Source: Azospira oryzae (GTDB lineage: Bacteria; Pseudomonadota; Gammaproteobacteria; Burkholderiales; Rhodocyclaceae). Taken from it: DNA of 64,000 bases. The translations under genes were made by a program, and so were the position numbers. A model generated the notes under the pieces. It worked only from the letters and a program-made list of their open reading frames with translations, did not search any database and was not told the origin of the DNA. Positions 50,772 to 63,191 of this stretch are shown piece by piece (position 1 is the stretch's first letter; each line of letters opens with the position of its first letter). The DNA is taken from assembly GCF_004217225.1 (NCBI RefSeq), contig NZ_SHKM01000002.1, positions 687,307-751,306 of the forward strand, given 5' to 3'.

Positions 50772-51257
50772 TCAGTCGGCGTCCAGTTGGCGGATCAGGG
50801 CCGGGGTCACCTGGCCGAAGTCCACGATGCGCTTGCCCTTGTGGTCCTTGAGAAATTCTTCCGCATCCAGCCGGTCGGCCTGGGGCACCAGTTCGTGACC
50901 CATGGGACCGAGCACGTCGGAGCCGAGGACGAATAGGGCCTTGCGTGCGTCAACGCGGCGCAGGTTGTAGAAGTCGGTCACCAGGATGGCCTCGATGTCG
51001 CCGGGGCGGTGGCCCGGGGCGTATTTGGGCAGGTCCTGGAGGAACTTGAACATGTCCTTGGCGCCGTCGAAGAAATGCACATGGCCGTCCTTCCACTGCA
51101 CCACGGCGACCCAGTTGGGATACTTGGAAACCAGCATGCCGCAGACCGGGCAGGTGTCCCGGGGACCGGGCTTGGCGGGCGGCGCGGCGGCTGCCGCTGC
51201 GGCCTGGATACCCATCCAGGCGCAGAGCAGCCAGGCCGCCAGGAGGCGGCGTCCCAT
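50772..51257 (-). CDS. NosL-like copper-binding protein
   Basis: A protein of 161 residues. A signal-type hydrophobic N-terminus (about 1-25, Ala-rich) precedes the NosL motif CPVCGM (Cys36, Cys39, Met41) and VQWKDGHVHFFDGAKDMFKFL. NosL proteins bind Cu(I) and help assemble the nitrous oxide reductase copper sites or related enzymes. There is no lipobox, so this one is probably secreted to the periplasm or membrane-anchored. It starts one base before the stop of the upstream NosL-type gene, which suggests co-transcription. Confidence 0.85.
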   Translation of the reverse strand: MGRRLLAAWLLCAWMGIQAAAAAAAPPAKPGPRDTCPVCGMLVSKYPNWVAVVQWKDGHVHFFDGAKDMFKFLQDLPKYAPGHRPGDIEAILVTDFYNLRRVDARKALFVLGSDVLGPMGHELVPQADRLDAEEFLKDHKGKRIVDFGQVTPALIRQLDAD

Positions 51258-51258
51258 C

Positions 51259-51864
51259 TCAGCCCTTGGCCTGGGCGGCCTTGCGCCGGCGTTCTTCCCG
51301 GTTCCTGCGGATCATGGCCACGTCGCCGGCCATGTCCAGATAGGCTTCGCGCAGGGCATCGTTGAAGTTGCCCAGGCTGCCGCCGTACTTGGCCTGGAAT
51401 TCCTTGGCCACGCTGGGGGTGGCGAAGGAATGCTTGCTGCGCTTGGTCATGGCGTGCTTGAGGTCGGCGCCGATGAGATAGACCAGGTTGTCCACCGGCA
51501 CCAGGGGCCGGGGTTCGGCGGCGGAGCCGTAGTCGGGGCCCCAGATCTGCTTCGGTTCCCGGTCGATGTTGAGGCCCAGGCTGAGGCTCAGACAGTGGAT
51601 GGAGCAGACGCCGTCGGCCAGGTCGTCGCTGTACTGCACCAGCATGCGGGCCTTGTGGTGTTCCTTGCGGTCCATGCCGCAGTAGGGACACTTGGGATAC
51701 TTCTCGAATTCCTTGTCCAGCGGCTTGGCATCGGCCCCGGTCTTGGGAATGAACTGCTGGGGCGTGCGGTCCGTGTCGCAGGCGGCGGCCTGGGCGGTGC
51801 CGGTGGTGGCGGCGAGCCCGGCGCCGGCGGCCAGGGACAGCTTCAATAGTTGGCGACGATCCAT
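51259..51864 (-). CDS. NosL-related protein with Tat-like signal (paralogue 1)
   Basis: A protein of 201 residues. The N-terminus MDRRQLLKLSLAAGAGLAATT resembles a twin-arginine signal. The metal-site motifs are CPYCGMDR (Cys59, Cys62, Met64) and CSIHC (Cys87, Cys91), followed by a conserved region ending in basic helices. A close paralogue sits at 55992-56558 on the other side of the fecI-fecR-TonB genes; shared blocks include GPD(Y/F)G, (T/M)(K/R)RSK and the basic tail. The gene is divergent from fecI. Function is inferred to be copper handling outside the cytoplasm. Confidence 0.8.
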   Translation of the reverse strand: MDRRQLLKLSLAAGAGLAATTGTAQAAACDTDRTPQQFIPKTGADAKPLDKEFEKYPKCPYCGMDRKEHHKARMLVQYSDDLADGVCSIHCLSLSLGLNIDREPKQIWGPDYGSAAEPRPLVPVDNLVYLIGADLKHAMTKRSKHSFATPSVAKEFQAKYGGSLGNFNDALREAYLDMAGDVAMIRRNREERRRKAAQAKG

Positions 51865-52049: not shown

Positions 52050-52547
52050 ATGCTCGGTGGTGAAGCGCTCGCCCATCTCTACCTGCAGCACGTCGCCGAA
52101 CTGCGCCATTACCTGGCCCAGCGGGTGGCCTGCCGGGAAGTCGCCCGGGAACTGGCCCAGGAAACCTTCCTGCGCATGATGCTGAGCGACGGCAAGGACG
52201 CCATCCGCAATCCCCGGGCCTTCCTTTACCGCATCGCCGCCAACCTGGCGGTGGACCACTACCGGGCCCAGGCCGGCCGTCCCCGGGAAATCCTGCCCCT
52301 GGAAGACTGCGCCGAACAGGCCTGCCCCCGCCCCGGTCCGGAGCAGGTGGCCAGCGCCCGGCAGACCCTGGCCCGCCTGGCGGTGGCGGTGGAACAGCTG
52401 CCGCCCCGCTGCCGCGAGGTGTTCCTGCGCCACAAGTTCGACGGCTGCCGCCAGGCCGACCTGGCCCGGGAATACGGCATCAGCGTCAATGCCATCGAAA
52501 AACACCTGATCCGGGCCCTGGTGCAGCTGCGCCTGTGCCTGCACTGA
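52050..52547 (+). CDS. FecI-type ECF sigma factor
   Basis: A protein of 165 residues. Region 2 (LAQETFLRMMLSDGKDAIRNPRAFLYRIAANLAVDHYR) and region 4 (QLPPRCREVFLRHKFDGCRQADLAREYGISVNAIEKHLIRAL) are those of iron-starvation FecI sigma factors. In such systems it is controlled by the anti-sigma FecR and a TonB receptor that carry signals from outside the cell. All three genes are present in order here. Confidence 0.92.
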   Translation: MLGGEALAHLYLQHVAELRHYLAQRVACREVARELAQETFLRMMLSDGKDAIRNPRAFLYRIAANLAVDHYRAQAGRPREILPLEDCAEQACPRPGPEQVASARQTLARLAVAVEQLPPRCREVFLRHKFDGCRQADLAREYGISVNAIEKHLIRALVQLRLCLH

Positions 52548-52549
52548 CC

Positions 52550-53479
52550 ATGTCCGCCTGCGGCACGCCCCCTGAAGACCAGCCCCTGCCGGCGGTGCTG
52601 GAGCAGGCGGCGGGCTGGCTGCTGCGTCTGCAGCGGCCGGAATGCTCCGCTGCCGAGCAGCGCCGCTTCGAGGCCTGGCTGGCCGCCGACCCCCGCCATT
52701 CCCGGGAGTACGCCCGCTTCCAGGAACTGTGGCGCCAGCTCGACGGCCTCAAGCCCCGCCGCCGCAGCCGGCGCCAGTCCCTGGCCGCCGGGCTGGCCGG
52801 CCTCGCCTGTTGCGGCGCCCTGCTCGGCCTGCCGGCCATGGAGCGCCAGGAGTGCCTGCAGACCGCGGTGGGCGAAATGCGCAGCGAACTGCTGGCGGAC
52901 GGTAGCCGGCTCGACCTCAACGCCGACACCGTCCTGCGCATCCAGTATTCGCAGCACCAGCGCCGCCTGTTCCTGGAGCGGGGCGAGGCCCGCTTCGTCG
53001 TCGCCGCCGATGCCCGGCCCTTCTCGGTCCAGGCCGGCGCCGCCACCCTGCGGGACATCGGCACCACCTTCGCCGTCAGCCGGGAGCGCCAGTCCCTCGC
53101 GGTGCGGGTGCTGGAAGGCAGGGTGGAAGCCCATCTCGGCGCCGCCCCCGTGGCCATCGGGGGCGGCCAGCAATGGCAGCACGGGCCCCAGGGCAGCAGC
53201 GCAGTGCAGCCGGTGGCCCCGGGGCAGGTGGCGCCCTGGCTCGATGGGCGCTGGATTTTCCAGGCCACGCCCCTGGCCCAGGCCCTGGCCCAGGTCAATC
53301 GCCAGCACGAGCGTCCGGTGCTGCTGCAGGACCCGTCCCTGGCGGAACTGCGCATCAGCGGCAGCTTCCGCATGGCGGACCGGGAGGGCCTGCTCGACGC
53401 CCTGCTGCTGCTCTATCCCCTGGCCCGGGAAGAGGGCCGGGACCGCACCTACCTGCTGCGCCGCGGCGGTGCCGAGTAA
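52550..53479 (+). CDS. FecR-type anti-sigma/transmembrane sensor
   Basis: A protein of 309 residues. The cytoplasmic N-terminal part has the DUF4880 motif AAGWLLRLQRPECSAAEQRRFEAWL, followed by a hydrophobic segment (SLAAGLAGLACCGALLGLP) and the periplasmic FecR domain (GERSELLADGSRLDLNADT-like, LFLERGEARFVVA, LRDIGTTFAVSRE). It starts three bases after the fecI stop. It holds the sigma factor and responds to the receptor's signalling domain. Confidence 0.91.
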   Translation: MSACGTPPEDQPLPAVLEQAAGWLLRLQRPECSAAEQRRFEAWLAADPRHSREYARFQELWRQLDGLKPRRRSRRQSLAAGLAGLACCGALLGLPAMERQECLQTAVGEMRSELLADGSRLDLNADTVLRIQYSQHQRRLFLERGEARFVVAADARPFSVQAGAATLRDIGTTFAVSRERQSLAVRVLEGRVEAHLGAAPVAIGGGQQWQHGPQGSSAVQPVAPGQVAPWLDGRWIFQATPLAQALAQVNRQHERPVLLQDPSLAELRISGSFRMADREGLLDALLLLYPLAREEGRDRTYLLRRGGAE

Positions 53480-53575
53480 ATATTTTTGCCCACCCGTGTC
53501 AGGGTTTTCAGTGCGCCAACGTCTCACTCCCCATGCCGGCAAACAGCCGGAGTCTCAGTGAGTGAAAGGCGAGCA

Positions 53576-55939
53576 ATGAAAAAAATGATGGGGATGGTGG
53601 CGCTGGTGACGGCAGCCGTGGCGGGGAACTCATGGGCCCAGGGGGCGCGTACGCTGGACCTGGCGCCCCAGCCCCTGGCCGAGGCCCTGCAGGGTCTGGC
53701 CGGGCAGACGGGCATCCAGATCCTGTTCGACGCGGCGGAACTGCAGAGCGCCCGCAGCCGGGGCCTGCAAGGCAGCCTGACGCCGGAAGCGGCGCTGCAG
53801 AAGCTGCTGCAGGACACGGACTTCGTCTTCCACAGCACCGCCCCGGGGAGCTACGTGATCCAGCGGCGCAGCCGCTCGGGCAATGTGCTGCCGGAGGTGC
53901 TGGTGCACGGCCAGCGCCTGCGGGCCGAAACCGAAGGCAGCGGCACCTATGCGGCGGCCGCTGCCACCGTGGCCGGCAAGGTGGCCCTGACGCCGCGGGA
54001 GATTCCCCAGTCGGTGTCCGTCCTCACCCGGCAGCAGATGGACGACCAGGGCATGGTCACCATGGTGGATGCCCTGCAGCAGGTGACCGGGGTCAACGTC
54101 ATCGCCAATGACACCACCCAGTCCCAGTACCTGTCCCGGGGCTTTTCCCTGGGCGTGATGCAGGACGGCGTGCCTTCCCACTCGGGCCTGACGGCGGTGC
54201 ACCAGTTCGACCTGGCCCTGTACGACCGGGTCGAGGTGCTGCGCGGTCCGGCCGGCATCCTGCAGGGCACCAGCGAACCCGGCGGGGTGGTGAATCTGGT
54301 GAAGAAGCGCCCCCGGGATACCTTCGCCGCCGCCGTCACGGCCTCCACCGGCTCCTGGAACAACAACCGGGTCGAGGGCGACATCACCGCGCCCCTCAAC
54401 GCGGAGCGCAGCCTGCGGGGCCGGCTGGTGGTCAGCGACGAGGATCGCCAGTACTACTACGACCGGGCCCGCACCAACAAGTGGCTGGCCTTCGGCGCCC
54501 TGGAATACGATCTCTCCCCCGCCACCACCCTGTCCCTCTCCTTTGCCGCCCAGGACAGCCGCAGCAAGGCGCCTTCCTCCGGCCTGCCCAAATACAAGGA
54601 CGGCAATTTCCTCAAGGTGGACCGTTCCACCAACGTGGTGCCGGACTGGGTGGTCTACAGCTACTACACCGAGGAAACCTCGGCCAGCGTCGAGCATCGC
54701 TTCGCCAACAAATGGGTGGCCAAGGCGTCCTACAGCCACCGCACCCAGAATGCCTTCTCCAAGGATGCCTGGCCCAGCTCCGGGGTGAACCGGGCCACCG
54801 GCACCGTGGATGCCTACAACCGCAGCCAATACACCAGCGACGACCGGCGGGATGGCCTGGATGCCTTCATCAATGGTCCCTTCGACCTCTTCGGCCGGAC
54901 CCACAACCTGCTGCTGGGGGTCAACGCGGAGGTCTACAACAGCCGCAGCAAGAGCGGCAGTGCGTCCACCGTGGCCAACGTTTCCCTGGCCGATGCCGCG
55001 TCGTTGCCGGAGCCTTCCTTTACCTACACCTCCGGCAGCGAAAGCGAGCGGGCCCAGTCCGGCGTCTATTCCCAGCTGCGCCTCAGCCTGGCTGACCCGG
55101 TGACCCTGGTGCTGGGCGGCCGGGCCACCAACTTCAAGGCCAAGAGTCGTAACGTTTCCCCGTCCACCCAATCCGCCTGGCGTGACGGTGCCCAGGCCAA
55201 CAACCAGTTCACGCCCTACGGCGGCCTGATCGTGGATGTGACCCGGCAGATTTCCCTCTACGGCAGCTACGCGGACATCTTCGTGCCCCAGACCCAGCTG
55301 AAGGCCGACGGCAACGCCCTGGATCCCCGCGTCGGCAAGCAGTACGAGGTCGGCAGCAAGGGTGAGTTCTTTGACGGCCGCCTCAATGCTTCCCTGGCTT
55401 TCTTCAACATCCGGGACAAGAACCGGGCCTACCGGGACCCGGCCTACCCTGCCGCCTCGACGCCCTATTACCTGAACGCCGGGGAAATCGAGAGCAAGGG
55501 CTGGGAAGCCGAAGTCAGCGGCAGCCCCATGGCCGGCCTGGAACTGATGGCGGGCTATACCCGCCTGGAAACCCGTTACCTGTCGGACCGGACCCTGCAG
55601 GGCAAGGAGTACTCCATCCAGTCGCCGCGGGACAGCCTCAAGCTGTGGGCCAACTACCGCTTCAACCAGGACAGCCTGCGGGGCCTCAACCTGGGGCTGG
55701 GCACCATCGTCAGCAGCGGCGCCGGCAGTTCCCGCGGCAACCGCAATGTGGAGACCCAGGGCGGCTACGCCGTGGTCAATGCCCTGGTTGGTTACCAGAT
55801 CGACAAGAACTACTCGCTCAGCCTGGCCGCCAACAATCTCTTCGACCGGAACTACTACGCCACGGTGGGCACCTTCACCGCTTACAACTTCTACGGCGAG
55901 CCGCGCAACCTGATGCTGACCTTCCGCGCCCGCTACTGA
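53576..55939 (+). CDS. TonB-dependent siderophore-type receptor with STN signalling domain
   Basis: A protein of 787 residues with a signal peptide ending near AGNSWAQ. An N-terminal secretin/TonB short (STN) domain (about 27-100: LDLAPQPLAEALQGLAGQTG) is followed by the plug (REIPQSVSVLTRQQMDDQG, VEVLRGPAGILQGTSEPGG) and a 22-strand barrel ending in Tyr. STN domains transmit ligand binding to FecR. The start ATG at 53576 was preferred to a far upstream in-frame start. Neighbouring copper-linked genes suggest the ligand may be a metal chelate, but ferric siderophore is the default from family knowledge. Confidence 0.92.
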   Translation: MKKMMGMVALVTAAVAGNSWAQGARTLDLAPQPLAEALQGLAGQTGIQILFDAAELQSARSRGLQGSLTPEAALQKLLQDTDFVFHSTAPGSYVIQRRSRSGNVLPEVLVHGQRLRAETEGSGTYAAAAATVAGKVALTPREIPQSVSVLTRQQMDDQGMVTMVDALQQVTGVNVIANDTTQSQYLSRGFSLGVMQDGVPSHSGLTAVHQFDLALYDRVEVLRGPAGILQGTSEPGGVVNLVKKRPRDTFAAAVTASTGSWNNNRVEGDITAPLNAERSLRGRLVVSDEDRQYYYDRARTNKWLAFGALEYDLSPATTLSLSFAAQDSRSKAPSSGLPKYKDGNFLKVDRSTNVVPDWVVYSYYTEETSASVEHRFANKWVAKASYSHRTQNAFSKDAWPSSGVNRATGTVDAYNRSQYTSDDRRDGLDAFINGPFDLFGRTHNLLLGVNAEVYNSRSKSGSASTVANVSLADAASLPEPSFTYTSGSESERAQSGVYSQLRLSLADPVTLVLGGRATNFKAKSRNVSPSTQSAWRDGAQANNQFTPYGGLIVDVTRQISLYGSYADIFVPQTQLKADGNALDPRVGKQYEVGSKGEFFDGRLNASLAFFNIRDKNRAYRDPAYPAASTPYYLNAGEIESKGWEAEVSGSPMAGLELMAGYTRLETRYLSDRTLQGKEYSIQSPRDSLKLWANYRFNQDSLRGLNLGLGTIVSSGAGSSRGNRNVETQGGYAVVNALVGYQIDKNYSLSLAANNLFDRNYYATVGTFTAYNFYGEPRNLMLTFRARY

Positions 55940-55991
55940 CCAACCCCGGGACCGGGCAGCCCTCCCGGTCCTTCTGCCTGGAGGAATGCAT

Positions 55992-56558
55992 ATGGATCGC
56001 CGTACCCTTTTCAAAGGACTTCTGGCGCTGACGGTGGTGGGGCAGGCCGAGGCGGCCGAGCCCGCTGCCGAGCCCGGCGCCGACCCGGCGCCCCTGGACC
56101 ACGAGCTGGAAAAGTATCCCCGCTGCGTCGTCTGCAACATGGACCGGCGCCGCTTCCATTACGCCCGTCACCTGACCCATTACGCCGACGATCACGTGGA
56201 CGGCACCTGCTCCCTGGAATGCACGGCGGAGATGATGCTGCGGGAGCGGCGGCGGGGCTTCAAGGCCATCTACGGGCCCGACTTCGGCGCCGAGGGCGAG
56301 CCCAAGCCCCTGGTGGATGTCGCCGCCGCCACCTATCTGCTGGGCAGTCGCCTGCCGGGCACCATGACCCGGCGCAGCAAGTACGTCTTTGCCGATCCGG
56401 TGGTGGCCCAGCGGGTGCGCCAGGAGCAGGGCGGCGAACTGGCCACCTTCGACGAGGCCCTGGCCGCATCCATGGCGGAGAAGGCGGAGCAGCTGGGCCG
56501 CCGCTACCGCAACGACCAGGAGCGGCTGCGTCGCAAAAAGGACGGCGCCGCCAGCTGA
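55992..56558 (+). CDS. NosL-related protein (paralogue 2)
   Basis: A protein of 188 residues with an N-terminal MDRRTLFKGLLALTVVG that resembles a Tat signal. The metal motifs are CVVCNMDR (Cys45, Cys48, Met50; note Asn in place of Gly) and CSLEC (Cys73, Cys77). The sequence is paralogous to the product of 51259-51864. The ATG at 55992 stands seven bases after GAGG; an ATG six bases earlier is too close. It is downstream of the receptor and probably in the fecI-fecR-receptor transcript. Confidence 0.82.
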   Translation: MDRRTLFKGLLALTVVGQAEAAEPAAEPGADPAPLDHELEKYPRCVVCNMDRRRFHYARHLTHYADDHVDGTCSLECTAEMMLRERRRGFKAIYGPDFGAEGEPKPLVDVAAATYLLGSRLPGTMTRRSKYVFADPVVAQRVRQEQGGELATFDEALAASMAEKAEQLGRRYRNDQERLRRKKDGAAS

Positions 56559-56568
56559 GGCGCGCCGT

Positions 56569-57573
56569 TCAGGGTTCCAGCAGCACCAGCCGGGAGCCGG
56601 CCATCATGCCGGCGGCCAGGCACAGCAGCAGGCCGAAGCCCCAGGCCGCCACCGTCGCCAGACGGCGCGAGGCGGCCGGGGCGATCTGCTCCAGGCCTCG
56701 CACCCGGCGCACCAGTTGCAGCACGCCGCTGCCCATGCCGGCCGCCGTGGCGGCGAACAGGGGCAGGTAGAGGGCGTAGCCCTGGTAGTCGTACTCGGGC
56801 TTGAGGATGCAGAAGGGGCAGTGGTGGTGGGGGTGCTCGTAGAGGTAGAGCGAGAGGAAGGAAACGATGCCAGCGATGCCGCCGACGAAGGCGCCGCCGC
56901 TGCTGAGCCCGGCCAGGAGGCCGAGGCGGCCGCTCCAGGCGTGCCAGGCGGTGAGCAGGGCGGCCAGGCCGAGGCTGCCGTAGAACCACAGCATGGCCGG
57001 CAGGGGCGCCAGTCCCGCCATTTCCCCGGCGACGCCGTGGTTGCTGTCGCCGGAGAAGAGGCTGCCGCAGCAGGAGGTGATGATGTCTGCCTTGAGGCCT
57101 CGGAAATAGGACCATTGCAGCCAGGCCGAGAGGGCCAGCAGGGGCGTCAGGCCCAGCAGCAGGGCGTACTTGAGGCGCACCAGGGGGTAGTTGCGGGCCC
57201 GGGTGTCCACGTGGTTCAGCACCAGCCACAGGGCGGCGAGGAAGAATAGCGCGACCTGCAGCAACAGGGCGGGAAAGCCCCAGGCATGCGCATTGAGGGC
57301 GCCGACGGCGCACATGGCGCCGACGAACATGGCGGAGAGCCGGTCGGCGGTGAACACGAAGAGCAGCAGGGCCAGCAGCTGGCTGGCGCAGACGAAGGCG
57401 GCCAGGGTGGAAAAGAGGTAGGTGCGCCGCTCCAGCTGCAGCTGCAGTTCGCTGCCGCTGCCCAGGTCCCAGCGGCGCAGGATCTGCCAGGCGAAGGGGG
57501 CGGCGGCGGCCACCATCACCAGGGACAGGGTGGCCGCCAGGAGCAGGGCGATGACCGAGGGCTGGAAGAGCAT
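56569..57573 (-). CDS. Polytopic membrane protein with Cys-Cys and His/Cys metal-like motifs
   Basis: A protein of 334 residues with about nine hydrophobic segments. Cys168-Cys169 (TSCCGS) and the cluster HPHHHCPFC with His247, His249-251, Cys252 and Cys255 are placed in loops between helices and look like metal ligands. I do not recognise a named family. It is the last gene of an operon with an ABC ATPase, an ABC permease, a small exported protein and a Sco-like lipoprotein. A role in moving or presenting copper at the membrane is inferred from the motifs and context only. Confidence 0.75.
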   Translation of the reverse strand: MLFQPSVIALLLAATLSLVMVAAAAPFAWQILRRWDLGSGSELQLQLERRTYLFSTLAAFVCASQLLALLLFVFTADRLSAMFVGAMCAVGALNAHAWGFPALLLQVALFFLAALWLVLNHVDTRARNYPLVRLKYALLLGLTPLLALSAWLQWSYFRGLKADIITSCCGSLFSGDSNHGVAGEMAGLAPLPAMLWFYGSLGLAALLTAWHAWSGRLGLLAGLSSGGAFVGGIAGIVSFLSLYLYEHPHHHCPFCILKPEYDYQGYALYLPLFAATAAGMGSGVLQLVRRVRGLEQIAPAASRRLATVAAWGFGLLLCLAAGMMAGSRLVLLEP

Positions 57574-57576
57574 GGC

Positions 57577-58251
57577 TCAATCCCCGCAGAGGCGGCCGTC
57601 GCGCAGGCCCACCACCCGGTGCACCGCGCTGGACTTGATCACCAGGGGGTCGTGGCTGGTCAGCAGCACCGTGCGGCCCTCGCCGCTGAGCTCCTCCAGG
57701 ATGGCGAGAAATTGCTTGGACAGGGTGGTGTCCAGATTGGCCGTGGGCTCGTCGGCGATGATGACTTCGGGGTCGTTGATCAGGGCCCGGGCGATGGCCA
57801 CCCGCTGCTGCTCGCCGCCGGACAGCCACTCCACCCGGGCATGGCGGCGGTGGCCCAGCTGCAGGCGCGCCAACAGGACCTCGGCCCGCTGCAGCAGTTC
57901 GGCGTGGGGCTTGCCCTCCGGGTAGGCCGGCAGCATCACGTTGTCCAGAGCCGAGAGGCCCCGGATCAGGTTGAACTGCTGGAAGACGAAGCCGAAGGTG
58001 CGGCGGCGGATTTCTGTGAGGAAGCGTTCCGGCAGGCCGGAAATGTCTTCCCCGTGCAGGCGCACCCGGCCCCGGGTGGGGCGGGCCAGGCAGCCGACGA
58101 TGGTCAGCAGGCTGGTTTTGCCCGAGCCGCTGGGGCCCTGGAAGGCGGTGACGCGCCGGGCCTCCAGTTCCAGGTCGATGCCGGAGAGGGCCCAGTATTC
58201 GTTGTGCTGGCCCTGGTTGAAGGCCTTGTGGATGTCGGTGAGCTGGATCAT
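57577..58251 (-). CDS. MacB/LolD-type ABC transporter ATPase
   Basis: A protein of 224 residues. Walker A GPSGSGKTS, Q-loop FVFQQFNLIRG, signature [15 protein letters not shown], Walker B VIIADEPTANLD and switch His in LLTSHDP are intact. The type is that of the MacB/LolD family that works with FtsX-like permeases. The start MIQLTDIHKAFNQGQHN was chosen. It lies 14 bases after the permease gene and 3 bases before the next gene. Confidence 0.92.
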   Translation of the reverse strand: MIQLTDIHKAFNQGQHNEYWALSGIDLELEARRVTAFQGPSGSGKTSLLTIVGCLARPTRGRVRLHGEDISGLPERFLTEIRRRTFGFVFQQFNLIRGLSALDNVMLPAYPEGKPHAELLQRAEVLLARLQLGHRRHARVEWLSGGEQQRVAIARALINDPEVIIADEPTANLDTTLSKQFLAILEELSGEGRTVLLTSHDPLVIKSSAVHRVVGLRDGRLCGD

Positions 58252-58265
58252 GGCAGGTCCCCCGG

Positions 58266-59402
58266 TCAGCCGCGCATGGCCGCGTCGGGATCGATGATGG
58301 CGGCGCGCCAGATGGGCACCAGCACGGCGGCGGTGTAGGGCACCACGGTGAAGAAGAAGAGGGTGAACAGCTGCAGGCCGTCCAGCTGGGGCACCAGGGT
58401 GAAGCGGGGATAAAGCACCGCCCAGCCCTTCAGCACCGGCTCGAAGAGGCGGGCGCCGAAGTGGAAGACATGGACATAGGCCCCCACCAGGCCGAGGAGG
58501 AAGGCGCTGAAGGAAATCAGCAGGCCTTCCCACAGCTTCATGCGCAGCACGTCCCCGGTCTCCCAGCCGATGGCCTTGAGGATGCCGATCTCCCGCCGCT
58601 CGTCGGCGGAAAGGCCGGACGCCTTCTCCCAGGCCAGGATGGCAAAGGCCAGCAGGGCCGCCGCCAGCAGGGCGAGGGCGATGCCCTCGCGCCAGTCCAG
58701 CAGGCTGGCGTAGGTGCGGCGCATCTCCTCGCGCAGGATGGGGCGGGCGTCGGGCAGGGCGGCGCTGAGCTTGGCCGCCACGTTGCGCACCTCCTGGGGA
58801 TTGGCCACCGACAGGGCGATGTCCGTGTAGTGGCCGGCCGGGTAGTCGAAGAAGGCGCGGAAATCGGCCTCGCCGAGCAGCACCAGGTCGGCGCTGATGA
58901 GTTCGCTGCTGGCCGGCAGCACCTCGTCCACGGTGAAGGTGAACAGCTTGCCGCCGTAGGAGCGCAGGGACAGGGGCTGGCCCGCCTGCAGGCCCCGCTC
59001 CCGGGCCAGGGTGGCGCCCAGGCGCAGATGGCCCGGCGCCGGCGCCTCAGCGGCCGGCACCAGCAGGGTGTAGTTGGCCTTGCTCACCGGATCGTAGTAG
59101 TAGCCCCACAGGCGTCCCTGCTGGTGCTGCACGCCGCGGATGCGGCCGATCTTCTCCAGGTAGCCCGGCGGGATCAGGTCGTGGCGCCCCGCCACCAGGC
59201 GCTGCAGGATCACCTCCGGCGAGTCGGCCAGCACCGCCGCCGCTTCCTGGCGCAGGGCCTGGCCGAAGAGGGAGACCGAGGCCAGCATGAACACCAGCAG
59301 GGCATAGACCGCCAGCAGGCCCAGGTTGCGGGCCTTGCGCCGGGCCAGGGCGGCCAGGGTGTAGTCAATCAGGTAGCGTTGTTTCTCGATCCAGGGGCGC
59401 AT
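58266..59402 (-). CDS. FtsX/MacB-type ABC transporter permease
   Basis: A protein of 378 residues with one N-terminal membrane helix (LGLLAVYALLVFMLASVSLF), a periplasmic domain of about 200 residues, and three C-terminal helices, the FtsX/MacB/LolCE layout. The cytoplasmic coupling stretch includes ERREIGILKAIGWETGDVL. Such transporters drive mechanical work on periplasmic partners rather than small-molecule uptake. It overlaps the upstream small gene by 38 bases. Confidence 0.9.
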   Translation of the reverse strand: MRPWIEKQRYLIDYTLAALARRKARNLGLLAVYALLVFMLASVSLFGQALRQEAAAVLADSPEVILQRLVAGRHDLIPPGYLEKIGRIRGVQHQQGRLWGYYYDPVSKANYTLLVPAAEAPAPGHLRLGATLARERGLQAGQPLSLRSYGGKLFTFTVDEVLPASSELISADLVLLGEADFRAFFDYPAGHYTDIALSVANPQEVRNVAAKLSAALPDARPILREEMRRTYASLLDWREGIALALLAAALLAFAILAWEKASGLSADERREIGILKAIGWETGDVLRMKLWEGLLISFSAFLLGLVGAYVHVFHFGARLFEPVLKGWAVLYPRFTLVPQLDGLQLFTLFFFTVVPYTAAVLVPIWRAAIIDPDAAMRG

Positions 59403-59700
59403 AGTGGGGCAGACGGGCGGGGGGCGGCGGCACGACGGAGCCGGAGGGGAAGTGGTCCAGGGCCAGGGGATGGTCCTGGAACGGCGAATGGAGATCGGCC
59501 AGGGACAGGTGCCGGGTGTAGCGGGCCTCGGTGAACAGGGCCAGGTCGCTCAGGCCCAGCTGCTGCACCAGGGCGGCCCGTGCGGCCTGCTCCTGCTGCC
59601 GCGGCGGTGCCAGGCGGCGGGCGTCGGCCAGCATGGACAGGAACAGCAACAGAAGCACGGCCAGGAAGGCGCCGAAGCGGGCCGAGGGGCGCCGCGTCAC
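59365..59700 (-). CDS. Small putative exported protein in the Sco/ABC operon
   Basis: A protein of 111 residues with an N-terminal hydrophobic segment (FGAFLAVLLLLFLSMLADA) and a mature part containing LSDLALFTEARYTRHLSLADLHSPFQ and FPSGSVVPPP. I do not recognise the family. It starts four bases inside the Sco-like gene's stop and runs 38 bases into the permease gene, so it is tightly packed in the operon. The unusual length of the overlap means the call is moderately certain; the alternative is an open frame by chance. Confidence 0.6.
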   Translation of the reverse strand: MTRRPSARFGAFLAVLLLLFLSMLADARRLAPPRQQEQAARAALVQQLGLSDLALFTEARYTRHLSLADLHSPFQDHPLALDHFPSGSVVPPPPARLPHYAPLDRETTLPD

Positions 59701-60248
59701 AACAGGCTCCGGATGGCGGCCACCATCTCCTGGGGCGAGGCGCCGGGGGGCAGGGTGGCAGCCAGGCGGCCGCTGCCGTCGAGCAGGTAGCTGCTGCCGC
59801 TGTGGTCCACGAAGTAGCTGCCGTCGGGGCGTGGCGCCTGCTTCTCGAAGCCGGTGCCGAGTGCCTTGGCCAGGGCTGCGGTCTGGGCCGGCGGGGCGCT
59901 GGCGCCCACCAGCAGGGGGTGGAAGAAGGCCGTATAGCCTTGCAGGGCGGCGGGCGTGTCCCGCTCCGGGTCCACCGTCACCAGGACCAGATGTACCCGC
60001 TCCCGTTCCGCCGGGGTCAGGCTATTGAGGGCCTGGGCGCCGGTGGCCAGGGCCGTGGGCGAAAGATCGGGACAGTTGGTGTAGCCGAAGAAAAGCAGGC
60101 GCACCTGGCCGTCGGCGGCGGGGCTGTCGAGGGGGCCGGCGGCAGTCTGCAGATGAAATTCGACGGGCACACCCGTGCCCCGGGATTCGGCGGCGGGCTG
60201 GCAGGCGCCCAGCAGGAACAGCAGGGCGAGAAACGGAAGGATGCGCAC
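59697..60248 (-). CDS. Sco1/SenC-like lipoprotein lacking the second copper-ligand Cys
   Basis: A protein of 183 residues with a lipobox ending at Cys16 (LFLLGAC). The thioredoxin-like Sco fold is recognised from LLFFGYTNCPDLSPTAL, VTVDPERDTP, and the His149 motif DHSGSSYLLD. The usual CxxxC copper site is CxxxS here: Cys59 is present but Ser63 replaces the second cysteine. Sco proteins deliver copper to cytochrome oxidase CuA and sometimes to nitrous oxide reductase. It is the first gene of the five-gene minus-strand operon. Confidence 0.88.
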   Translation of the reverse strand: MRILPFLALLFLLGACQPAAESRGTGVPVEFHLQTAAGPLDSPAADGQVRLLFFGYTNCPDLSPTALATGAQALNSLTPAERERVHLVLVTVDPERDTPAALQGYTAFFHPLLVGASAPPAQTAALAKALGTGFEKQAPRPDGSYFVDHSGSSYLLDGSGRLAATLPPGASPQEMVAAIRSLL

Positions 60249-61103: not shown

Positions 61104-63191
61104 ATGACATCGCAGCTGTCGCGCCGCGCGAGAATCTGGATCTATTCGATCAGGGACGCCTTCGTCTCCCTGATTCCCCTGACCCTGTTCGGAGTGCTGG
61201 CGGTGCTGGCGCGCAACTTTCCCCTGCCCGCCTTCCAGCAATTCCTGCTGGGCGGAAGCGGCCAGGCCTTCTCCGGCATCCTCGATCTCATCATCGGCGG
61301 CACCCACGGCGTCTTCGGCCTCTCCCTGGCGGTCGTGGTGGCCATCCACCTGCGCCAGCGTCTGCCTGTCGGCCAGCCGTTGGACGACGGGCCGTCGATC
61401 ATGGCGGTGGGCCTGTCGAGCCTGATCAATTTCATGCTCGCCACCCTGGCCATCTTCCAGCACCACGGCGGCCTCGGCTACGACCTGATGCTGGTGGGCA
61501 TCGGCGTCGGCCTCTTCTCCGCCGAGTTCATGCGCTGGTCCGCCCGCCGCTCCTGGCTGACCCTCATCAGCGCCACCCGGGATGCGGACCTGGCGGTGCA
61601 CAATGCCCTGCGCCTGAGTGTGCCGACCGCCGTGTCCGGCCTGATCGTGCTGGCCGTGGCCAGCTTCCTGGCCGCCCTGCCCACACCCCAGGCCCTCTTC
61701 GACGGCGTCGCCGCAGGCGCCCGGGAGAGCGCCCAAGGCCACTATCTGGCCATCACCTTCGTCACCCTGGTGAACCAGCTGTTCTGGTTCGTCGGCATCC
61801 ACGGCGGCCACATCCTGGACACCTTCGGCCTCGATCTCTTCGTCGCCGTGCCGAACCTGCCCGGCGGCTACCTGGTGAATCGCTCCCTCTTCGACGCCTT
61901 CGTCCTGATGGGCGGGTCGGGCGCCACCCTGGGCCTGCTGGTGGCCATCTACCTGCAGTCGCGCAGCGGCTCCCTGCTCAAGGTGGCCCGGGTGGCGACC
62001 CTGCCGGCCATGTTCAACATCAATGAAATGGTGCTGTTCGGCCTGCCCGTGGTGCTGTCGCCCCTCTACCTGCTGCCCTTCGTCCTGACGCCGGTGCTGC
62101 TGGCCCTGCTGGCCGTGGCCGCCGTCAGTTCCGGCTGGCTGCAGCTGCTGCCGGTCAGCATTCCGTGGACCACTCCGCCCTTCCTCTCCGGCTGGCTGCT
62201 GACCGGTTCCATCAAGGGCGTATTGCTGCAGGCGCTGGGGCTGTTGCTCAGCATCGGCATTTACTGGCCCTTCGTGCGGCGGGCGGAGGCCCGGCGCCTG
62301 GCGCGGGAAGACCGGCTCTTCCGGCGGGCGGCGGAAGTGGTGCTGGGCAACCGGCCGAGCAAGACATCCACCATCCGGCGCCTGGACGAAGTGGGCAGCA
62401 TCAGCCGGCGGGTGCTGGGCCTGCTGCGGGAGGATGTGCGCCATGGCCGGCTGTTGCTGCACTATCAGCCCAAGCACGACTGCCGGGACCGCCTGCTCGG
62501 CTTCGAGGCCCTGGTGCGCTGGCCCCAGGCACCCCACCCCTCCGTCTCCCCAGCCATGGCGGTGATCCTGGCGGAGGAGGGGCGGCTGATCAACGAACTG
62601 GGCCTGTGGGTCTTCCGCCAGGCCCTGGCCTTCAAGGCGCACCTCAACCAGAGCGGCTTTGCCGGCTTGAGCCTGGCCATCAACGTGTCGCCCCTGCAGC
62701 TGGCCCACGGCGATTTCGCCGAGCGCATCGCTCGCCTCATGGCCGAGACGCCGGTGCAGCCGGCGGAGATTGAAATCGAAATCACCGAATCCCAAGTCAT
62801 GCCCGACGACCCGGTGATCGACAGCAACATCCAGGCCCTGGGGCGCATGGGCTTCAAGCTTGCCATGGACGATTTCGGCATGGGCCACACTTCCCTGCTG
62901 CACCTGCGGCGCTTCGCCATCGACGTCATCAAGATCGACGGTTCCCTGACCCGGGATGTGCTGCACAGTGCCACCAATGGCGACATCATCCGGGCCATCG
63001 CGGCCCTGGGCCAGGCGCGGGACATCGCCATCGTCGCCGAATTCGTCGAAACGGCGGCGCAGAAGCAGGCCCTGGCCAATCTGGGCTGCCATGTCTTCCA
63101 GGGCTATTACTACAGCCCGCCCCTGGCGGAGGCGGATTGCCTGGCCTATTGCCGGCGGCAGCCGGACGAGGCGGAGGTCGGCGCCGCCTGA
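61104..63191 (+). CDS. PTS EIIC-like membrane domain fused to EAL phosphodiesterase
   Basis: A protein of 695 residues. Residues about 10-395 form a polytopic domain like PTS lactose/cellobiose EIIC (PSIMAVGLSSLINFMLATL, NQLFWFVGIHGGHIL, FNINEMVLFGLPVVLSP). A linker leads to an EAL domain (about 430-685) with Glu468-Ala-Leu, INVSPLQL, EIEITES, Asp589-Asp590 in MDDFGMGHTSLL, Lys610 and Glu646/Glu649 (EFVET), so the catalytic set for cyclic di-GMP hydrolysis is complete. No PTS EIIA/EIIB genes are nearby. The membrane domain is probably a sugar sensor or transporter coupled to second-messenger breakdown. Confidence 0.9.
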   Translation: MTSQLSRRARIWIYSIRDAFVSLIPLTLFGVLAVLARNFPLPAFQQFLLGGSGQAFSGILDLIIGGTHGVFGLSLAVVVAIHLRQRLPVGQPLDDGPSIMAVGLSSLINFMLATLAIFQHHGGLGYDLMLVGIGVGLFSAEFMRWSARRSWLTLISATRDADLAVHNALRLSVPTAVSGLIVLAVASFLAALPTPQALFDGVAAGARESAQGHYLAITFVTLVNQLFWFVGIHGGHILDTFGLDLFVAVPNLPGGYLVNRSLFDAFVLMGGSGATLGLLVAIYLQSRSGSLLKVARVATLPAMFNINEMVLFGLPVVLSPLYLLPFVLTPVLLALLAVAAVSSGWLQLLPVSIPWTTPPFLSGWLLTGSIKGVLLQALGLLLSIGIYWPFVRRAEARRLAREDRLFRRAAEVVLGNRPSKTSTIRRLDEVGSISRRVLGLLREDVRHGRLLLHYQPKHDCRDRLLGFEALVRWPQAPHPSVSPAMAVILAEEGRLINELGLWVFRQALAFKAHLNQSGFAGLSLAINVSPLQLAHGDFAERIARLMAETPVQPAEIEIEITESQVMPDDPVIDSNIQALGRMGFKLAMDDFGMGHTSLLHLRRFAIDVIKIDGSLTRDVLHSATNGDIIRAIAALGQARDIAIVAEFVETAAQKQALANLGCHVFQGYYYSPPLAEADCLAYCRRQPDEAEVGAA

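Follow-up and report, generated by a model that had tools for sequence, protein, structure and literature searches.

The closest described relatives of the protein analysed here are Bradyrhizobium ScoI, Thermus Sco1 and Streptomyces lividans Sco, which all belong to PF02630, have a thioredoxin fold, carry a first cysteine and a distal histidine, and possess a membrane or lipid anchor. Whether copper chaperoning or thiol-disulfide reduction is the main role of Sco varies from organism to organism and continues to be debated, according to the available portions of two papers (PMC6696091, PMC3603459), the second of which reports that the S. lividans protein acts as a copper chaperone and lacks thiol reductase activity. 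The first, a review, also cites Cys-to-Ala work on Bacillus Sco, and a genome survey of Sco by Banci and others is cited in PMC9145763, again judging from the portions available. Plant HCC2 is conserved although it has neither of the cysteines nor the histidine (PMC3971200, in part), and the available part of the review describes it as able to complement a yeast Sco2 defect (PMC6696091). Natural CxxxS, CxxxA or CxxxW Sco proteins of bacteria are not described in the open-licence literature we found, insofar as its available portions go, and the Banci survey may mention such variants. Our protein shares the features listed above with ScoI, Thermus Sco1 and S. lividans Sco, but their motif is CxxxC, whereas its own is CxxxS and its gene appears to head a NosL/ABC operon.

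The window is a 64,000-nucleotide stretch of the Azospira oryzae genome, the features of which are collected in Table 1. Its sco gene starts with GTG and runs from 60248 to 59697 on the minus strand. In a Pfam profile search the product scored 101.3 bits against PF02630 (SCO1-SenC), for which the curated cut-off is 22.8, and it thus falls within the superfamily. It has two cysteines: C16, in a putative membrane-anchor lipobox (LGAC, by eye in the translation), and C59. The AF2 model (pLDDT 85.9, pTM 0.80) has a thioredoxin-like Sco fold, and a fold search of the PDB with this model returned Sco1 and ScoI structures as the top matches (2k6v, 4wbj and 2ggt among the best), the closest being Thermus Sco1 (2k6v) and Bradyrhizobium ScoI (4wbj). 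H149, within VDHS, aligns with the VDH/MDH region of both and occupies the place of the distal histidine. The canonical CxxxC is absent: the translation reads ...LLFFGYTNC59PDLS63PTALA...SYFVDH149S..., and in the alignment the motif region is FGYTNCPDLSPTALA, against a consensus of FGYTNCPDICPASLA for 15 relatives and the window. Because the motif is C59-P-D-L-S63, we file the protein as a PF02630 homologue and not as a canonical CxxxC-H Sco, and it follows from the sequence that it is unable to form the CxxxC disulfide. The initial annotation had described a CxxxS in place of CxxxC with His149 kept, and one of the three canonical copper ligands gone from an otherwise intact protein. Both descriptions hold: the codons for Cys59 and Ser63 were read directly, His149 stands in the translation, and the window protein keeps 19 of the 20 columns that are invariant in its 52 distinct operon-linked relatives, while matching the majority at 69 of the 134 other columns. 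The residues C59, P60, D61, P64, D93, P94, R96, D97 and H149 occur in all 52 and in the window alike.

Table 1. Features of the window around the Sco gene, with the evidence or context for each
Feature	Position	Strand	Basis or context
Sco/SenC-family lipoprotein, 183 aa, CPDLSP instead of CPDxCP	59697..60248	minus	translation, PF02630, AF2 model
Codon 59, TGT (Cys)	60072..60074	minus	read from sequence; kept in 53/53 distinct operon-linked Sco
Codon 63, TCG (Ser)	60060..60062	minus	read from sequence; Cys in 48/52 distinct operon-linked relatives
Codon 149 (His)	59802..59804	minus	translation; kept in 53/53 distinct operon-linked Sco
p111, 111-aa protein, hydrophobic N-terminus	59365..59700	minus	core conserved across phyla
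FtsX-type ABC permease, distant match to LolC/LolE	58266..59402	minus	profile similarity; 66-79% identical in other genomes of the family
ABC ATPase, FtsE/MacB/LolD type	57577..58251	minus	profile matches
334-aa membrane protein, 8 long helices in model	56569..57573	minus	invariant SCCGS and EHPxHHCPFC motifs
NosL-family protein	55986..56558	plus	PF05573, 44 bits; convergent with operon, after TonB receptor
TonB-dependent siderophore-receptor-type protein, STN domain	53486..55939	plus	after ECF sigma and FecR genes
FecR gene	52535-53479		between ECF sigma and TonB receptor genes
ECF sigma gene	52050-52547		precedes FecR and TonB receptor genes
NosLb, NosL-family protein; Tat-like signal below cut-off	51259..51864	minus	near the operon
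NosLa, NosL-family protein	50772..51257	minus	NosL genes directly upstream of p111 in 22/80 named operons

The sco gene is the first of five, followed by those for p111, a LolC-like permease, a LolD-like ATPase and an 8-helix membrane protein, with gene overlaps of 4 nt and 38 nt and gaps of 14 and 3 nt. Within the same bacterial family, 15 operons carry the five genes in identical order. From the spacing and the conserved order we infer that the five genes form an operon headed by Sco, which agrees with the earlier placement of Sco at the head of an operon near NosL-type genes, three of which lie in the window. The conserved core of p111 (by eye, LFTEARYTRHxSQADLHSAFQDHPxALEHFPSGS) matched no Pfam or NCBIfam family above its cut-off. 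The permease is 66-79% identical to its counterparts in other genomes of the family; its score against the NCBIfam lolCE model, 35 bits where the cut-off is 362, leaves it outside LolCDE, with a distant similarity. CC and CPFC of the 334-aa membrane protein are conserved in 16 of 16 aligned sequences; the protein belongs to no Pfam or NCBIfam family, and in a fold search against solved structures its best match had E 0.72. A scan for promoters and terminators gave nothing beyond chance level.

A FecI-type sigma gene, a FecR gene and a gene for an STN-type TonB receptor adjoin the operon in the window and at four other loci (L050, L051, L094 and L153), and a NosL gene follows the receptor in the window, where the four genes span 52050-56558, and at L050, L094 and L153, L051 ending after the first three genes. 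The sigma/FecR/TonB receptor/NosL set looks like an uptake module for a metal, as a copper complex. At 61104-63191 the window encodes a fusion of a membrane PTS EIIC-like domain with an EAL domain.

We compared position 63 across operon-linked Sco proteins, 61 rows that reduced to 53 distinct sequences, the window included, once 8 identical pairs were merged. Loci L037-L051 had been located through similarity to Sco and then shown to be operon-linked, while L057-L193 were located through the permease, a search blind to the Sco motif. Of the 52 other distinct sequences, 48 have Cys at position 63, three have Trp (all CPDIWP) and one has Ala (CPDLAP, L153); Ser occurs in the window alone. Cys59 and His149 are kept in all 53, and none of the five Sco proteins that lack Cys63 has a spare cysteine after the lipobox. 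Matches to Sco at L046, L106 and L110 are partial or distant, with no His scored and with Cys at both aligned sites. Counting distinct sequences from all loci (103), departures at position 63 number 5 of 53 operon-linked Sco and 0 of 50 others, a contrast with a Fisher p of 0.058 when 47 distinct cores serve as the others and related sequences are counted separately. The paralogues retrieved from genomes with Trp or Ala forms are all CxxxC. Likewise, the A. oryzae genome has five PF02630 matches, the other four of which read CPDVCP, CPDVCP, CPDICP and CPDVCP, which leaves the Ser copy as the exception. The nearest of these paralogues (C1:1448968-1451813) lies about 2.2 kb from a match to the nosZ propeller, and a second nosZ match is found on C2.

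These counts do not allow Ser to be fixed in this operon context, as the initial annotation had considered, and make it a lineage variant. The annotation had also held that a single-strain mutation or sequencing error would be indicated if homologues kept both cysteines. They mostly do, yet four distinct relatives, with Trp or Ala, also lack Cys63. Such an error, or a private mutation without meaning, would account for a Ser found in one genome only, and two genus-mates of A. oryzae that we examined have no match to the operon permease, so that no close relative confirms the residue. We consider it very improbable all the same. TCG is two substitutions away from either Cys codon, TGC or TGT (TGC to TGG, giving Trp, is one), so one miscalled base does not suffice to explain Ser63; the assembly is 99.99% complete in 6 contigs; and position 63 has also changed elsewhere, with Trp in three distinct sequences.

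How often Cys63 was lost was estimated on two trees. The Sco tree needs three changes at position 63, two of them forced by well-supported branches, and still needs three when column 63 is masked. A tree built from the three partner proteins, without six rows whose neighbours are short (L059, L069, L076, L141, L142 and L150), also needs three. On the partner tree a single origin is rejected for Ser and Ala (p-AU 0.0018) and for Ala and Trp (p-AU 0.001), and is not rejected for Ser and Trp (p-AU 0.118, and 0.339 on the Sco tree); on the Sco tree alone a single origin of Ser and Ala is not rejected either (p-AU 0.157). Judged from these trees, two losses are firm and three are most likely. This recurrent, separate loss suggests that the usual chemistry of two cysteines is not indispensable to one branch of the Sco family.

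The permease search recovered at least 284 relatives, and the best 80 of these, all named loci, span beta-, gamma- and alphaproteobacteria, deltaproteobacterial groups, Nitrospirae, an acidobacterium of the Holophagaceae and a gemmatimonad. Among these best 80, p111 is present in all 80, the ATPase in 78 and the membrane protein in 74, some contigs being short; a NosL gene lies within the stretch examined in 53 and directly upstream of p111 in 22. Sco is associated with betaproteobacteria, being part of the operon in 21 of the 80: 18 of 31 betaproteobacterial loci and 3 of 49 that are other or unplaced. The operon of p111, FtsX-type ABC transporter and HHCPFC membrane protein (56569-59700 in the window; L057-L136) is thus phylum-spanning and often accompanied by NosL. 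In 73 operons from the window's own family, Sco is present in 40 and absent in 29, and a contig end cuts the remaining 4; a NosL gene is found in the stretch examined in 26 of the 73, and directly upstream of p111 in none by the queries used. Two operons have PCuAC in the Sco slot, among the genes listed upstream of p111 (L160, 2977-3474; L164, 9492-9989), both in a genus that also holds CPDIWP forms, and at a third locus PCuAC lies one gene further upstream (L182, 100-684). Since NosL surrounds the operon in several phyla and PCuAC stands in or near the Sco slot, we take the slot to be a position for a copper chaperone, and the operon is likely to be copper-related.

The same occupancy data bear on the main alternative, that of decay, in which a redundant accessory Sco lets its second cysteine drift off and is later lost or replaced, with little or no copper or redox role left. 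The 29 operons without Sco mean that it is dispensable there, though this figure is not divided between gains and losses and many of these operons may never have had Sco. Replacement is consistent with PCuAC in the slot in two genomes of the genus with the Trp form. Redundancy would be expected where a genome holds four further CxxxC copies, as in A. oryzae, or where a second, divergently transcribed CxxxC Sco lies just upstream of the CPDIWP gene, as at the three Trp-form loci (L066, L069 and L155). Against decay, all reading frames are intact, and Cys59 and His149 are always retained.

Selection and rate also speak against decay. In the three sequences of the Trp lineage, pN/pS is 0.19, 0.24 and 0.16 (Fisher p 6e-13, 2e-6 and 8e-16). 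Because the loss of Cys63 predates the split of these sequences, purifying selection continued after it; this applies to the lineage in which it was measured, the Ser form being a single genome. By the NG86 method, dN/dS in the Trp lineage is 0.13-0.22, inside the range of CxxxC control pairs (about 0.07-0.23), and by YN00 it is 0.11-0.13, at or just over the top of the controls (about 0.03-0.12); these controls were 18 CxxxC pairs, 4 of which yielded no Sco value, and all values, Trp and control, are far below 1. The long branches of the Sco tree had suggested that copies lacking Cys63 evolve specially fast, an idea we rejected because the branches of the partner genes are long there too. Relative to the mean, the ratio of Sco to partner branch length is 1.43 for the window, with the Ser change somewhere along its long branch, 1.25 for Trp and 0.73 for Ala. 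Ratios this near the mean indicate that the length of these Sco branches comes more from the lineages being long than from a relaxed constraint on Sco, and there is no rate excess over the partner genes. Weighing both sides, we regard decay as possible but rather unlikely. As for the idea of an accident in a single strain, it retains the restriction of Ser to one genome; against it are the loss of Cys63 in two or more independent events, the window among them, and the purifying selection in the Trp lineage.

A possible connection of the operon to nitrous oxide reductase was also examined. We found nosZ in 47 of 69 genomes with the operon and 28 of 54 without it (p 0.09, kinship ignored), and in 40 of 52 against 28 of 54 when only the better genomes with the operon were used (p 0.009, kinship again ignored). 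The 69 are the 72 operon genomes without G157, G341 and G385; the 54 were hand-picked as absent from the permease match table, on the assumption that the search covered them, 20 of the 323 genomes without a match being explicitly listed. By hand count, 10 of the 69 have nosZ on the permease contig at a distance of no more than 25 kb. The tie to nitrous oxide reductase is weak. Multihaem cytochromes are linked to copper sulfite reductase clusters. An open reading frame with three or more CxxCH motifs occurs near the operon at 5 of 153 loci, which led nowhere, and a term search of the main text of the Shewanella SirA paper found neither NosL nor copper.

What function might remain depends on Cys59 and His149. 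One proposal is a metal-free, monothiol redox partner, in which Cys59 would form a mixed disulfide with a cysteine of a partner, such as NosL or the CCG/CPFC membrane protein, to be resolved by that partner's second cysteine. The thioredoxin fold of the window Sco would suit such a role, as would the constancy of the CC and CPFC cysteines, and a mixed disulfide of TlpA with engineered ScoI C74S has been crystallised (4TXO, from its PDB title). A purely thiol role would, however, leave H149 superfluous, and this Sco metal ligand is invariant in all 53 sequences; we judge the proposal improbable.

The retention of Cys59 together with His149 instead argues for a remaining metal site. The reading we put first, with some reserve, is that the window encodes what is quite possibly a natural monothiol Sco, tolerated and probably used in a copper operon that does not need dithiol/disulfide chemistry, with a two-ligand Cys59-His149 copper site. 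Such a protein would have given up intramolecular dithiol/disulfide exchange. Cys59 and His149 would present a copper site, probably of two-coordinate Cu(I) and weaker than a three-ligand site, and the protein might take copper from, or pass it to, the NosL proteins, the ABC transporter and the HHCPFC membrane protein, with an operon partner perhaps supplying the rest of the coordination as the copper is handed over. The ordinary Sco jobs would be left to the canonical CxxxC paralogues that the genome also encodes. As far as sequence and gene context can indicate, the protein would most likely serve the NosL/ABC system as a two-ligand Cu(I) relay or docking protein. A broader proposal strikes us as doubtful: that the operon-linked Sco proteins are a branch without need of dithiol chemistry, in which the NosL/FtsX-type ABC system would do the energised step, Sco would be a Cys-His Cu(I) relay with a partner-supplied ligand, and the monothiol state would have evolved two or three times.

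A natural Sco with one thiol and the histidine, in which no CxxxC disulfide is possible, would separate the chaperone and reductase roles without mutagenesis. If monothiol Sco proteins do still deliver copper, then what is essential in this setting is not the dithiol reductase activity. The monothiol forms draw attention, too, to a NosL/ABC operon that is widespread and includes two conserved proteins without a name; we found no description of this operon in the available portions of the open-licence literature.

Two engineered proteins, ScoI C74S (4TXO) and S. lividans Sco C90A (4BPY), resemble the window Sco in that, by their PDB titles, one cysteine of the pair is gone and the fold is kept. 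Those changes were engineered, whereas the variant in the window is natural. If C90 is the second cysteine of S. lividans Sco, as we assume, the Ala form at L153 would be a natural counterpart of C90A. We take C74 to be the first cysteine of ScoI, in which case 4TXO represents the opposite half of the pair. Plant HCC2 is likewise a conserved relative of Sco without the full CxxxC-H set, but it differs in having neither cysteine nor the histidine, whereas the window Sco keeps Cys59 and His149 and so is not HCC2-like, on the available portions of the sources (PMC3971200, PMC6696091). Closest to the operon as a whole is NosDFY-NosL, the copper machinery of nitrous oxide reductase, in which, on the part of the source available (PMC7558416), an ABC transporter is also encoded with NosL-type chaperones. 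Compared with that system, the operon in the window has an FtsX/LolC-type permease, p111, an HHCPFC membrane protein and up to three NosL genes nearby, with Sco present in some lineages only.
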